From Mucilaginibacter jinjuensis (GTDB taxonomy: Bacteria > Bacteroidota > Bacteroidia > Sphingobacteriales > Sphingobacteriaceae), in contig NZ_CP117167.1 in assembly GCF_028596025.1 (NCBI RefSeq), positions 4,588,001-4,652,000 on the forward strand: DNA of 64,000 nucleotides, read 5' to 3'. The translations under genes and the position numbers were made by a program. Positions 2,732 through 7,255 of this stretch are shown here, in pieces. Position 1 is the first letter of the stretch. Every line of letters starts with the position of its first letter. The notes below the pieces were generated by a model. The model saw only the letters and a program-made list of their open reading frames with translations, was not told where the DNA came from and did not search any database.

Positions 2732-3949
2732 ATGATCAAAAATGTGGCTGTTCTCTTTTATCTGAAAAAGAGGACGAATTCAAAAGAAGAAAAAGTTCCG
2801 GTTTATGTACGGATCACCTGCGATGGACAGCGTGCCGAATTGGCAACCGGTCAAAAAATTCAGGCAAAGCTCTGGAATCCCAGTGAAGAAAGAGCCAAAG
2901 GCAAAACAGAGGCGGTGTATAAATTGAACTCGGCCCTTAATGATTTCGAACTAAAGATTAACGATACGATCCGTTACTTAAAAGATTGTGGTGAAGAGCT
3001 CACAGCGGAAAAAATCAAAAACAGGTTCCTGGGCAAAACTGAAAAGCCCGTTATGCTGGTTGACGTATTCAAGGAACATAACCGTAAAGTAGCAGCCTTG
3101 GTGAATGAGGAATTTGCACCCGCGACCGTTACCCGGTATGAAACAACGCTAAAGCATACGCAAGACTTTATGCAATGGAAATACAAGATCAATGATATCC
3201 GCGTCAAGCAAATTGATCACCGGTTTATCAGTGAATTTGAGTTCTACCTCCGTTCGGTTCGTAAATGCAATAACAATTCAGCTTTAAAGTATATCAAGAA
3301 CTTTGGTAAAATTGTTCGCATCTGTTTGGCGAGTGGCTGGATTACTGTCAATCCCTTTCTTAATTACAAAATCAAAATTAAAAAAGTTGATCGGCCATTT
3401 CTGTCGAAAGAAGAGTTGGAGATCATGGCTTCGAAAACTTTCGTTAGCGCTCGTCTTGAGCAGGTCAGGGATATCTTTTTATTCAGTTGTTATACAGGAT
3501 TGGCTTACATCGATGTGCAAAAACTTAGGCGCTCTGAAATTGTCAAGGGTCACGACGGTGAGCAATGGATTTTTACAAGTCGCCAAAAAACCGATACACC
3601 CTCCCGTATTCCACTTATGCCTTATGCATTGAGTGTAATTGAAAAATATCGCGATCATCCACAATGTGAGATTGAGGATAAGCTCCTACCCATATTAAGC
3701 AACCAAAAAACGAATGCTTACTTAAAGGAGATTGCAGATTTGTGCGGTATAAATAAAGATCTAACTTTTCATATTGCCAGGCATACTTTCGCAACCACCG
3801 TCACCTTATTGAATGGTGTACCAATAGAGAGCGTGTCCAAAATGCTTGGCCATACCAATATTAAAACCACGCAGCATTACGCGAGGATCTTGGATTTAAA
3901 GGTTGGCGAAGATATGGGAGCTTTGAGAAAGAAGCTGCAAACTTCCTGA
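2732..3949 (+). CDS. Tyrosine recombinase, island integrase
   Basis: This 405-aa protein would integrate and excise the island at ssrA. The N-terminal part (about 1-100) looks like the beta-rich arm-DNA-binding domain of Bacteroidota integrases. A SAM-like core-binding domain (about 105-210) and the catalytic domain follow. Visible catalytic residues are the HIARH box, the LGH box (KMLGHTNIKTTQHYARI) with its nucleophilic Tyr, and a Lys in RQKTDTPSRIP. Where classical recombinases have the first Arg (TGxR), this has CYTGLAYIDV, as in CTnDOT-type integrases that lack Arg I. The gene lies 247 bp from attL and reads away from it. Confidence 0.92.
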   Translation: MIKNVAVLFYLKKRTNSKEEKVPVYVRITCDGQRAELATGQKIQAKLWNPSEERAKGKTEAVYKLNSALNDFELKINDTIRYLKDCGEELTAEKIKNRFLGKTEKPVMLVDVFKEHNRKVAALVNEEFAPATVTRYETTLKHTQDFMQWKYKINDIRVKQIDHRFISEFEFYLRSVRKCNNNSALKYIKNFGKIVRICLASGWITVNPFLNYKIKIKKVDRPFLSKEELEIMASKTFVSARLEQVRDIFLFSCYTGLAYIDVQKLRRSEIVKGHDGEQWIFTSRQKTDTPSRIPLMPYALSVIEKYRDHPQCEIEDKLLPILSNQKTNAYLKEIADLCGINKDLTFHIARHTFATTVTLLNGVPIESVSKMLGHTNIKTTQHYARILDLKVGEDMGALRKKLQTS

Positions 3950-4017: not shown

Positions 4018-4038
4018 GAGGTCGCAAATTGCGACCTC
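4018..4038. repeat. Palindrome upstream of ORF6N gene
   Basis: GAGGTCGCA/AAT/TGCGACCTC is a perfect 9-bp-arm hairpin 18 bp before the ORF6N start codon. It belongs to a set with 4603-4631, 5365-5385 and the intragenic 4256-4278. Confidence 0.8.
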
Positions 4039-4056
4039 AAAAGTAGAAATTAAACG

Positions 4057-4578
4057 ATGAAAGAGCTAAACACAAACGACCAACAAATAGTTGAAAAGAT
4101 ATATCTGATAAGGGAAATAAAAGTTATGCTGGACAAAGATCTTGCGGAAATGTATGGAACAATTCCTAAGCGTTTACGGCAACAGGTCAAACGTAACATG
4201 GAGCGTTTTCCCGAACATTTTATGTTTCAACTTTCCGATAAAGAAGTAGATTCATTGGTATCACAAAATGCGATACCATCGAGACAGTCGTTAGGCGGTA
4301 CTTTGCCTTATGCATTTAGTGAACATGGGATATTAATGCTTGCGAACGTAATCAAAAGCCAGCAGGCTATTACCATGAGCATTAGAATTATCGAGGTATT
4401 TGTCAAATTTAGAGAAATGTTAATCTCTCAAAAAGATCTATTACTTAAATTCGAACAGCTTGAAAAGCTAATCGTTCAGCATGATGATGACATCAATACC
4501 ATTTTTGCAGCATTGAAACAATTAATACATCAAAAGAATGAACCTCGGGAACCGATTGGTTTTAAACTGAAAGGTTGA
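4057..4578 (+). CDS. ORF6N domain protein
   Basis: This 173-aa protein has the ORF6N domain at about 12-100 (IYLIREIKVMLDKDLAEMYG, then KRLRQQVKRNMERFP and LPYAFSEHGILMLANV), a DNA-binding domain related to the KilA-N/Bro family of phages and mobile elements. A helical, probably coiled-coil C-terminus follows (about 120-160). Its function in bacteria is not established; a role in regulation or phage/element control is usual inference. Residues 67-74 (LVSQNAIP) are encoded by an imperfect palindrome (4256-4278) that resembles the hairpins on both sides of the gene. It reads in the same direction as the integrase, 107 bp downstream. Confidence 0.82.
   Translation: MKELNTNDQQIVEKIYLIREIKVMLDKDLAEMYGTIPKRLRQQVKRNMERFPEHFMFQLSDKEVDSLVSQNAIPSRQSLGGTLPYAFSEHGILMLANVIKSQQAITMSIRIIEVFVKFREMLISQKDLLLKFEQLEKLIVQHDDDINTIFAALKQLIHQKNEPREPIGFKLKG
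4256..4278. repeat. Intragenic palindrome in the ORF6N gene
   Basis: TGGTATC at 4256-4262 pairs with GATACCA at 4272-4278. The centre CACAAAATGC has one mismatch. Its middle (TCACAAAATGCGA) differs at one position from TCGCAAAATGCGA in the hairpin at 5365-5385. Confidence 0.7.
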
Positions 4579-4602
4579 GAGAAGAATTTCATTAACTAAC
4601 CT

Positions 4603-4631
4603 TCAAGGGGTCACATTTTGTGACCCCTTGA
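4603..4631 (+). terminator. Hairpin downstream of ORF6N gene
   Basis: TCAAGGGGTCACA / TTT / TGTGACCCCTTGA is a perfect 13-bp stem 25 bp past the ORF6N stop. It may terminate transcription, but it has no T run and shares the GGTCrCA...TGyGACC design with the hairpin upstream of the gene, so a recombination or protein-binding role is also possible. Confidence 0.5.
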
Positions 4632-4713
4632 ACATAGAGTAGAATAAGCCAATTAATGGAGACGATATGATAAACCTACCTATAAAGCCGTCGTTAAATT
4701 CATGATATAATTT

Positions 4714-5073
4714 ATGTTAAAGTCAATTAAAGAAGAAAAACAATACAATGATGCTTTGGCTCGCGTGTATGAGCTGATGCAAACTGATATAAATGAAGGC
4801 TCTGTGGCATCAGATGAGTTGGAGGTTCTTAGTATTCTTATTAAGGAATATGAGTTGGTATACCATCTTTTGCCTTCTCCTAGCCCACTGGAAGCAATTA
4901 AATTCAGACTTGATCAAATGGAAATGTCTGAAAAAGAACTGGGCGATATTTTAGGTTACCGGTCTCGTAAATCGGAAATCCTTTCTGGAAAAAGAAAATT
5001 GAGTTTAGCTATGATTAGAAAATTGAACGAAATCCTGCATATACCTGCCGAAGTTTTAATTCAGGCTTATTAA
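4714..5073 (+). CDS. HigA-like antitoxin / XRE HTH protein
   Basis: This 119-aa protein has a helical N-terminus and a C-terminal HTH (about 68-119: EAIKFRLDQMEMSEKELGDILGYRSRKSEILSG..LSLAMIRKLNEILHIPAEVL). That matches the Bacteroidota HigA antitoxin group, which binds its own promoter and neutralises a HigB-type mRNA interferase. In such systems the toxin gene lies immediately upstream. Here only 135 bp separate it from the ORF6N hairpin and no HigB-length frame fits, so it appears to be an orphan antitoxin. It may act as a regulator or protect against a toxin encoded elsewhere. Confidence 0.75.
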   Translation: MLKSIKEEKQYNDALARVYELMQTDINEGSVASDELEVLSILIKEYELVYHLLPSPSPLEAIKFRLDQMEMSEKELGDILGYRSRKSEILSGKRKLSLAMIRKLNEILHIPAEVLIQAY

Positions 5074-5717
5074 TTATAACGACATGTTATAGTAAGAGTA
5101 GAAGGCTTACAAGGTCGACGAAAAAACGCCCTTGTTTAGTTTGTTGAATAGTTATGTGTCTGAGACATTACTGGTAGATCGGACACAAATCTTGATCGTC
5201 GAAATTTTAATCGGCTCAAAAAAACGGCAATTCAAGAGCCGATTATTTCAATTAATCGGCTCATGAAAACTTTTTACTAATCTTCATAGAATAATTTCGA
5301 ATAGGGTTACAGCTTATACCATCAATAGATCGACACAAAAAAGCCCAATCACACATAATAGGTTGAGGTCGCAAAATGCGACTTCAAAGCAAGGCGGGAA
5401 AATGATAATAAAGCCGTTGATTTTATTTCCATAAGAGCCCACATTTTCACCCCCGCGGGCTTTAAGTAACGACTTAATTGTTCGCTATCCGTTTCCACAA
5501 CGGTCTTTGATTAAATATGCCTGCTTTATACTAACTTATCCCGGTCAGGAATTTCATATCCGGGAAACCTTTTGCTCTTTTGTTAAGCTGAATATTTAGA
5601 AACATGGTGTCTCTTGCTTGCCTATCAAAGGTAAGATAATGTAACAAATCATTGATTTGTTAGCCAAAGAACATCGGTTTTCAATACACCCATGATAAGA
5701 TTTACAAACAATATTAT
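5074..5717. other. Gene-free stretch with hairpins
   Basis: No convincing coding frame is seen. It contains three copies of a 10-11-bp motif in alternating orientation, TTAATCGGCTC (5207-5217), GAGCCGATTA (5236-5245) and TTAATCGGCTC (5252-5262), able to form either of two hairpins. It also contains the ORF6N-type palindrome at 5365-5385. It probably holds the promoter of the HTH/integrase pair that follows and remnants of older insertions. Confidence 0.5.
5365..5385. repeat. Third ORF6N-type palindrome
   Basis: GAGGTCGCA AAA TGCGACTTC has one mismatch between the arms. It is nearly the same as the palindrome at 4018-4038. No ORF6N gene adjoins it on the right, so it may mark the far edge of a cassette (about 4.0-5.4 kb) or a lost second copy. 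Confidence 0.65.
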
Positions 5718-6031: not shown

Positions 6032-7255
6032 GTGCTATTCTTCTTAAAAAAGACAAAAAGTCTAAGTAGGCCTTGCTATTACATTTACATCCGGATCAGT
6101 GTTAACGGCCAAAGAGAAGAATGGTCTACGCAATCTCAATGTCAACGTGAGGATTGGGATGGACAAAAAAGCAGGTTAAAAGGAAACACTCCGGATGCCC
6201 GTAACATCAATTCCTGGCTTGACACACTTTACGGACGGGCACTTCTAAGTAGACAGGAACTATACTCCTCAGGAAAATCTTTTACCCCACAACACATCCG
6301 CAAAGTTATGCAGGGTGAAGAATTGGATACCCCTAAAACGCTTTCCGATATCTGGACTTATCACACCACGCATATTGCGGGTCTCATTGGTAAGCAATAC
6401 ACGCCGGGTACGCTGCAAAAATACAAGTCAGTTTTCCGAGTATTAAAACGTTTTATGTTATTGAATAGTCAGACGGACGATATACGCCTGGATAAGATCG
6501 ATTACCGGTTTGTCAGAGCTTTTGATTATTACCTGAAAACGGATTATGGGGTTAAGATCAATACGGCAACGCAGATGTTGAAAAAACTGAGAACAATGAT
6601 GAAAATTGCAATTGAGATTGGCTGGGCTAAACAAGACCCATTCATTGCATACCGCGCTCATAATGAAGAAGTTTTCCGGGAGTACCTGACCAGTGAAGAG
6701 CTACGCGAACTTGCGGAGAAAAATTTATCCAAGAAACGGCTACATGTTGCAAGGGATCTTTTTTTGTTTAGCTGTTATACTGGACTCTCTTACGCGGATA
6801 CTGTAAAGTTAACTAAATCAGATATTGTAAAAGGGGAAGATGGCGGTACTTGGATACAAACACACCGGATGAAGAATAATAATCGGGTTCGGATTCCTCT
6901 CCTCGCTCCCGCATTAGAACTGATCAATCATTATAAGGATTATCCCCGACTAAAAGACGATGAAGCTATTCTGCCCAAACTAAGCAATCAAAAAGCAAAT
7001 GCTTATCTAAAAGAAATAACAAAGGCGCTTGGATGGAATAAATACCTAACTTATCATTGTGCGCGACACACGTTTGCAACTACGGTAACTTTGACAAACG
7101 GCGTTCCAATTGAAACTGTTGGCCAAATGCTTGGACACAAAAGTATTCGCTCTACTCAAATTTACGCGAGAGTAACGGATACTAAGGTTAGTAAGGATAT
7201 GCGGGTTTTAAAGAAAAAGTATGCTGGTCAAAAGCTGTTTTTAGCGGATATTTAA
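6032..7255 (+). CDS. Second tyrosine recombinase
   Basis: This 407-aa integrase has the same architecture as that at 2732-3949: arm-binding N-terminus, SAM-like core-binding domain, and catalytic domain with HCARH, LGH (GQMLGHKSIRSTQIYARV) and nucleophilic Tyr. CYTGLSYADT replaces the usual Arg I position. The start is GTG at 6032. The two integrases are clearly related but well diverged, so they are probably two elements rather than a recent duplication. No second att repeat was found, so its target is unknown; it may be a relic of an element that inserted beside the first one. Confidence 0.9.
   Translation: MLFFLKKTKSLSRPCYYIYIRISVNGQREEWSTQSQCQREDWDGQKSRLKGNTPDARNINSWLDTLYGRALLSRQELYSSGKSFTPQHIRKVMQGEELDTPKTLSDIWTYHTTHIAGLIGKQYTPGTLQKYKSVFRVLKRFMLLNSQTDDIRLDKIDYRFVRAFDYYLKTDYGVKINTATQMLKKLRTMMKIAIEIGWAKQDPFIAYRAHNEEVFREYLTSEELRELAEKNLSKKRLHVARDLFLFSCYTGLSYADTVKLTKSDIVKGEDGGTWIQTHRMKNNNRVRIPLLAPALELINHYKDYPRLKDDEAILPKLSNQKANAYLKEITKALGWNKYLTYHCARHTFATTVTLTNGVPIETVGQMLGHKSIRSTQIYARVTDTKVSKDMRVLKKKYAGQKLFLADI

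Follow-up and report, generated by a model that had tools for sequence, protein, structure and literature searches.

The ORF6N gene and its palindromes

The 64,000-bp window analysed here, from the genome of Mucilaginibacter jinjuensis, contains a gene of the ORF6N family accompanied by several related palindromes. The gene (4057..4578, forward strand) encodes a 173-aa protein whose match to the PF10543 profile (E 2e-31; 108.6 bits against a curated cut-off of 27.8) makes it a family member; it also matches the PADLOC model PDC-S05 (E 5.7e-53). PF10543 was the only domain called on the protein, its PHROG matches were to anti-repressor, and a profile search of the 6.16 Mb genome found no other ORF6N gene. 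A helix-turn-helix is predicted at codons 26-47 (4132..4197, forward strand) from AlphaFold helices at residues 26-33 and 37-46 and from the covariation described below.

Four palindromes were found in and around the gene, all where an earlier inspection of the letters without database searches (the sequence-only reading) had placed them. One, TGGTATCACAAAATGCGATACCA, lies within the coding region at codons 67-74 (4256..4278), a position conserved in the family. It is imperfect, with one A/C mismatch and half-sites that read CACA on the left and CGCA on the right, and it differs from GGTATCACANNNTGTGATACC by a single mismatch. The other three are extragenic: GAGGTCGCAAATTGCGACCTC (4018..4038), centred 29 nt 5' of the start codon and with CGCA in both halves; a 31-bp palindrome with perfect 14-bp arms (4602..4632), centred 38 nt 3' of the stop codon; and TTGAGGTCGCAAAATGCGACTTCAA (5363..5387), with one broken pair. 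These three had been credited with a common pattern, GGTCrCA-NNN-TGyGACC, which holds for the first two, while the third deviates from it at one base. The 17-mer pattern GGTCRCANNNTGYGACC has exactly two sites in the 6.16 Mb genome, both at this locus. The palindrome also exceeds chance across the phylum, the 17-mer being present in 70 of 395 Bacteroidota genomes versus 6 for a reversed control pattern.

Conservation of the in-gene palindrome

A search of the 395 Bacteroidota genomes gave matches to the family in 117, and our main set consists of the 150 matches listed, from 100 genomes, weaker matches being unlisted. In each gene the best palindrome was sought between two protein anchors, using a measure whose top score corresponds to a perfect 31-bp palindrome. 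A palindrome at the same codons scored at least 7 in 147 of the 150 genes, whereas three equally long control stretches from the same loci reached this score in 18, 6 and 13. Scores of at least 9 were reached by 129 genes (controls 3, 0 and 1) and of at least 12 by 86 (controls 0, 0 and 1), and 23 genes carried the perfect 31-bp palindrome. A second set, found by protein motif, drew 80 loci from a wide range of phyla and a further 61 from viruses; 15 loci without anchors were left out of it and 4 partial matches had been removed beforehand.

ORF6N genes on plasmids behaved in the same way. All nine that were scored, from 21 matching plasmid records (L189 among the unscored), carried a palindrome at the same place, with scores of 7 to 13; they come from Pseudomonadota, Fusobacteriota, Campylobacterota, Bacillota, Spirochaetota and Bacteroidota. 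Two Segatella plasmids of 2,955 and 4,140 bp (L186 and L187) have as their only annotated genes a replication protein gene and a palindrome-bearing ORF6N gene. On a plasmid of Treponema saccharophilum (L184) the gene run consists of a DNA methyltransferase, a winged-helix regulator, ORF6N and a restriction-specificity (S) subunit.

The encoded peptide does not account for the palindrome. Resampling of synonymous codons predicted 5.16 of 12 complementary pairs where 11.08 were observed, and p was below 0.05 at all but one of 124 distinct sites. The silent third base of a serine codon tracks its partner across the palindrome: TCA stands with GTG 56 times and TCG with GCG 40 times, with 2 breaks, in a tally that also includes 6 TCG/TCG pairs of another kind. 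Covariation between the two arms far exceeds what the columns alone predict and extends to about 13-15 bases on either side of the centre. Furthermore, a clear odd-length palindrome was available in 252 genes, of which 231 read it in one frame, giving RSQIATS-like and VSQNAIPS-like peptides, and 21 in another, giving VTNCD- or VANCD-like peptides. The third frame, in which a Q-type site reads as a stop codon, was unseen among the 252. RSQIATS itself had been named by the sequence-only reading as the usual peptide at this position; the exact peptide is present in just 3 of the 150 relatives, and what is common is the looser motif RSQ-x-A/V-T-S/L (38 of 150). Since synonymous resampling destroys the palindrome, its arms covary and two reading frames are used, these comparisons of aligned genes show it to be held by selection at the DNA level in nearly all family members examined.

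A code linking the recognition helix to the palindrome

Protein columns and palindrome base pairs were compared by mutual information over the 252 genes. With residues 64-82 set aside (those encoded by or adjoining the palindrome), columns 38, 39, 41, 42 and 43 stood out for pairs 4-9, with mean Z of 4.0 to 19.3 and single values up to 56; the remaining columns had Z of 2.6 or less, apart from a rare-variant value at 47. In the AlphaFold model the coupled residues fall within helix 37-46, which follows helix 26-33 in a helix-turn-helix arrangement, while most palindrome-encoded residues are in a loop. A sequence search of solved structures found no relative (best E 0.68), and Foldseek gave no match at E<=0.001, the best fold match (Z 6.8) being a weak one to Ski/Dachshund domains.

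The coupling can be read as a simple code. Residue 42 specifies pair 4, with Q standing for A, E for G, K or R for C, and L for T. Counting distinct cases with an intact pair 4 and a readable residue, this rule was correct in 205 of 207, made up of 191 of 193 in frame 0 and all 14 in frame 1. K38 occurred with G at pair 7 in 137 of 139 cases, R46 with C at pair 3 in 232 of 233, and N46 with A at pair 3 in 6 of 6. When relatives of at least 60% identity were excluded, five helix residues predicted pair 4 with an accuracy of 0.89, versus 0.41 for overall similarity; the corresponding values were 0.91 versus 0.80 for pair 5 and 0.90 versus 0.59 for pair 7. A tree was built from the columns outside the helix and the palindrome, and is likely to be poorly resolved because these are few. 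On it there were 80 changes at residue 42 and 71 at pair 4, and 56 fell on the same branch versus about 12 expected; 23 other residues, examined as controls, reached at most about 1.8 times expectation. Outside the set, the code gave the correct pair 4 in 8 of the 9 plasmid genes, from 6 phyla, one of the nine having near relatives in the set. Taken together, these patterns show that the palindrome is matched to the predicted recognition helix of the protein that it helps to encode. A self-targeting operator was one of the suggestions of the sequence-only reading, and the nearly deterministic co-evolution of helix and in-gene palindrome, with flanking palindromes of the same kind of site, supports it.

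The code also allows predictions for the window. The covarying codons 38-47 of its protein read K38 R39 L40 R41 Q42 Q43 V44 K45 R46 N47. The upstream palindrome (4018..4038), with its CGCA halves, is predicted to be an E-type site and thus non-cognate to Q42, and the third extragenic palindrome (5363..5387), in which CGCA also marks the E type, is likewise predicted to be non-cognate. The 31-bp palindrome downstream of the gene would rank as the best candidate cognate site of the window protein, because its pair 4 is A, fitting Q42, and its pair 7 is G, fitting K38. In the in-gene palindrome, A replaces G at pair 7, a substitution unique among the K38 genes compared, and the site looks as if it is decaying. 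Inspection by eye found two other loci (L208 and L269) where the in-gene palindrome has decayed and a perfect palindrome fitting the helix lies just 5' of the start codon. The window may be a third such case, since its in-gene site is imperfect with an odd pair 7 while the palindrome at 4602..4632 fits both K38 and Q42.

Extragenic palindromes

The sequence-only reading would have been contradicted had flanking palindromes been absent from other ORF6N loci. They are present, in a minority of cases: while the in-gene palindrome is nearly universal, a loose filter found 68 ORF6N-like extragenic palindromes (at least 3 of which look unrelated) at 44 of 253 genes, 43 of them 15-217 nt upstream of the start and 25 past the stop. 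When 17 of 21 bases were required to match one of as many as 40 other cores, there were 28 upstream and 9 downstream versus 1 in far control stretches, of 148. Many of the flanking palindromes are identical in their arms to coding palindromes of other family members.

We then compared the extragenic sites with the recognition helix of the neighbouring gene. Both halves fitted the gene's own protein at 33 of the 68 sites (25 of 43 upstream, 8 of 25 downstream), where shuffling expects 23 (p=0.002); 2 sites without a readable helix were scored as not fitting. Many of the non-fitting sites are clean symmetric sites of another type, and some of these occur in genomes with a single ORF6N match (G000, G025, G206 and G236). 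A model in which extragenic sites are operators for the gene's own protein alone was rejected: they matched the arms of their own gene at 8.6 of 12 positions on average versus 11.6 of 12 for the arms of another gene, the latter value being inflated as a maximum over up to about 250 genes. The percentile of the own type averages 0.61, so own types are somewhat favoured. At one locus (L146), four palindrome types stand in a row at 34-bp steps (1780-1960) ahead of an intact ORF6N gene, and the first is part of a truncated ORF6N gene, whose end lies just beyond it. Duplicate in-gene palindromes 36-72 nt apart were both cognate in 12 genes (5 of them close relatives), mixed in 3 (L070, L076 and L132) and half fitting in 1; further pairs, judged by eye to be probable chance pairs, were not counted. 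Upstream of another ORF6N gene (L196) we observed a Bro-N-type palindrome, ACCATTTTCGTGACGTCACGAAAATGGT, centred at -110 from the start codon.

The distribution of the 21-mer GAGGTCRCANNNTGYGACCTC does not resemble that of a dispersed palindromic element of the REP/RPE type. All 29 of its sites in 390 Bacteroidota genomes are tied to ORF6N genes or their remnants, 24 in or beside listed genes and 5 in stretches where our own profile detects a gene or remnant (E 1e-28 to 2e-6). For the looser 17-mer, 8 sites without a listed ORF6N gene nearby were checked, and 5 (L037, L056, L059, L060 and L061) had no ORF6N match within about 1.5 kb or less on each side, which weighs against a tie to ORF6N.

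In the viral collection IMG/VR, GAGGTCRCANNNTGYGACCTC occurred in 69 stretches versus 2, 2 and 7 for three control palindromes, and 59 of the 69 had no ORF6N match within the stretch retrieved. Of 36 distinct viral contexts, 20 were terminator-like, with T-runs, and 12 were hybrids of two types. Because of these terminator-like contexts and hybrids, and of coding matches for the AAGGTC pattern, the viral palindromes are ambiguous, and carriage of the mark by phages without the gene is a lead only. A rarer TCCA-type pattern was found in 3 viral stretches, 0 of them with an ORF6N match, and decides nothing on immunity. Three viral contigs (L425, L448 and L450) contain a phage gene with 2-3 in-frame palindromes encoding RRKVADCDLK or KITNCDLK repeats; these may be due to chance, or are possibly ORF6N-type sites within another gene.

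Bro-N and KilA-N genes

In-gene palindromes scoring at least 7 were found in 23 of 28 Bro-N genes and in all 16 KilA-N genes analysed, after 2 of 30 and 7 of 23 fetched loci, respectively, had been dropped for partial matches or stops. The palindromes are long and lie at similar positions within each subtype (Bro-N loci L555-L584, KilA-N loci L585-L607), and their arms covary. Examples are palindromes around GAATTC in KilA-N genes with the motif NPdFkplEFegf and around GACGTC in Bro-N genes with DHFVDVNKMV. These data suggest that carrying such an in-gene palindrome is common to the entire group of related regulators.

Neighbouring genes

The gene directly 5' of ORF6N encodes a tyrosine integrase (2732..3949, forward strand; Pfam PF13102, PF00589 and PF17293). 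A second tyrosine integrase is encoded at 6032..7255 on the same strand (Pfam), and the two related genes bracket the ORF6N region, which suggests stacked mobile elements. Linkage to an integrase was considered as a general trait and discarded, as an upstream homologue, judged by similarity to four query integrases, was found at just 7 of 147 other loci. An open reading frame of 119 aa (4714..5073, forward strand) lies between the last two palindromes; it is antitoxin-like by eye only, and a Pfam search at E 0.001 gave no match.

Proposed mechanism and its precedents

Our proposal is that an ORF6N gene encodes a helix-turn-helix protein and, within its coding sequence, the palindromic target of that protein, which would be bound by a symmetric dimer. 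As the dimer's target would lie inside its own gene, every DNA carrying the gene would therefore carry the site. Binding could then let the element control and recognise itself, by autogenous repression, by a cis-acting mark of self-immunity, or by both. The flanking palindromes would be either additional cognate sites, which lie chiefly upstream, or intact sites of other ORF6N types, and the latter could let foreign ORF6N proteins recognise the element. In our judgement it is very probable that the protein binds its own palindrome, and probable that this binding goes together with some self-regulating or self-recognising role. As to the form of that role, autogenous control through the palindrome has a little under an even chance of being correct. 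Self-immunity of the kind described next is a plausible second candidate that we hold somewhat more tentatively, and it is compatible with autogenous control.

The closest described parallel is BstA, a prophage abortive-infection protein with a putative DNA-binding domain, and aba, the DNA element that gives it self-immunity (PMC8585504). There, aba is described as a 63-bp element at the start of the gene with terminal CCCGCC direct repeats, which acts as DNA and is cognate between variants (PMC8585504). In both systems a mobile element encodes a protein whose DNA-binding domain is putative, and a short stretch of DNA that overlaps this protein's own coding region forms the element. Specificity is cognate between variants of BstA and aba, and is predicted to be so in ORF6N from the sequence code. 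BstA is described there as having a KilA-N-like domain, and KilA-N genes share the in-gene palindrome habit. Unlike aba, the ORF6N element is palindromic, lies about 200 nt inside the coding region and is without CCCGCC direct repeats at the gene start; immunity, which has been described for BstA, would be a putative function in ORF6N.

Operators inside transcribed coding DNA have precedents in lac O2 and gal OI, single cases located in genes other than that of the repressor itself. Unlike these, the ORF6N site is at the same codons family-wide and changes together with the recognition helix. Rickettsia palindromic elements and other in-frame palindromic repeats are, like the ORF6N palindromes, read as protein; they are inserted in unrelated genes, whereas the ORF6N site is bound to one gene family and to the specificity of its protein.

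Several results weigh against the proposal that ORF6N proteins recognise their own genes. Three of the 150 ORF6N genes score below 7 and have no clear palindrome, and in the second set a score of at least 7 was reached in 109 of the 122 genes with usable anchors, leaving some without a clear one. The code has gaps. For pairs 8 and 9, prediction did not improve on simply taking the majority base. Pair 3, whose variation is largely that of one clade, is also coupled to several dispersed columns, probably an effect of that clade. The rule for pair 4 failed at the plasmid gene of Legionella fallonii, where K42 stands with G. Just 44 of the 253 genes have a further palindrome close to the start codon or past the stop codon, so that autoregulation of the classical kind is less than obvious. 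Of the 68 extragenic sites about half are non-cognate, with one half-site fitting in 4 and neither in 31. Finally, bstA has no comparable palindrome, its best in-gene score being 7 and far from the KilA-N-like part.

Alternative explanations

The most conservative account is a pure autogenous operator, in which the in-gene palindrome limits transcription of its own gene, as a roadblock or by looping with an upstream site, and immunity plays no part. The predominance of cognate sites among the upstream palindromes near the start and among the genes with two in-gene palindromes favours it. Such an operator leaves unexplained the clean non-cognate sites in genomes with a single ORF6N match, and it gives no account of why a site is kept inside the coding sequence in nearly all members. 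We regard it as a credible explanation that nevertheless falls short of an even chance.

A bolder account follows aba: the protein would act against replicating or incoming DNA that lacks a cognate palindrome, the gene would shield its own element, and other elements would acquire palindromes to be spared. BstA provides the precedent of a DNA-based, cognate mark that overlaps its gene (PMC8585504). The arrays of differing site types at L146, L211 and L255 and the excess of GAGGTCRCANNNTGYGACCTC in IMG/VR, mostly without an ORF6N match, also agree with it. ORF6N proteins match the PADLOC family PDC-S05, which is a candidate phage defence family only; the passages on it that were consulted give neither a mechanism nor a palindrome. 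We know of no defence activity of an ORF6N protein, which counts against this account, as do the many viral sites that may be terminators, the hybrids among them, and the finding that bstA has direct repeats and no palindrome. Autogenous control would be the conservative reading and BstA-like self-recognition the bolder one, the latter fitting better with the clean foreign-type sites, the candidate-defence label and the tiny plasmids with a replication gene and ORF6N as their only annotated genes. Overall the aba-like mark is a possibility that we hold tentatively.

Extended to the KilA-N/Bro-N/ORF6N superfamily as a whole, the same idea would make these genes self-addressed, each carrying its own target in its coding sequence as a cognate mark of self. 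Types would then diversify as immunity types, and elements would trade and stack foreign palindromes, beside or inside ORF6N genes and, in phages, in intergenic DNA, to pass as self. Such a palindrome-based self/non-self system is speculative, and we would bet against it while considering it worth stating.

The sequence-only reading had suggested, besides an operator, a crossover at the shared palindrome that swaps gene halves. The truncated gene at L146 stops just past its palindrome, so occasional breaks are possible, and 16 of 142 gene pairs are alike in the N part and strongly different in the C part. Identity patterns show no special break at the palindrome (Spearman Na-Nb 0.16, N-Ca 0.30, N-Cb 0.20, Ca-Cb 0.33), and the whole palindrome stays matched to the upstream helix. 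Because the arms match each other and that helix, which crossovers within the palindrome would undo, exchange of gene halves is very improbable.

An RNA hairpin in the mRNA, acting in translation control or processing in place of a DNA site, is very unlikely: stems that are perfect over as many as 15 bp should fold, but G-U-type mismatches are not favoured (15 GT/TG versus 25 AC/CA at pairs 2-11) and the covariation with a DNA-recognition helix goes unaccounted for. Finally, an amino-acid motif that is palindromic by accident, for which the frequency of RSQ-x-A/V-T-S/L motifs might speak, has practically no chance of being the explanation, as it is contradicted by the synonymous null, the two frames with different peptides and the extragenic copies.

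Significance

Recognition by ORF6N proteins of a target inside their own genes, which we prefer, would be novel as a family trait. A literature search, mostly without subscription papers and bioRxiv, found no account of ORF6N, Bro-N or KilA-N genes that encode their own palindromes, and we know of no description of a code that ties a protein, throughout its family, to a site in the reading frame encoding it. The precedents, intragenic operators and aba, are single systems, while the ORF6N coupling is family-wide. A family hardly mentioned in the literature searched would gain a function-relevant target, together with a protein-DNA recognition code readable from genomes alone.

The coupling would also provide a case in which a DNA site imposes amino acids on the very protein that reads it. 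Residue 72 would follow residue 42 through the DNA, a dependence that contact predictors may mistake for a structural contact. If the self-immunity reading is true, the KilA-N/Bro/ORF6N set would constitute a large class of mobile-element self/non-self systems, and one that would be readily testable because each protein's target is written in its own gene.

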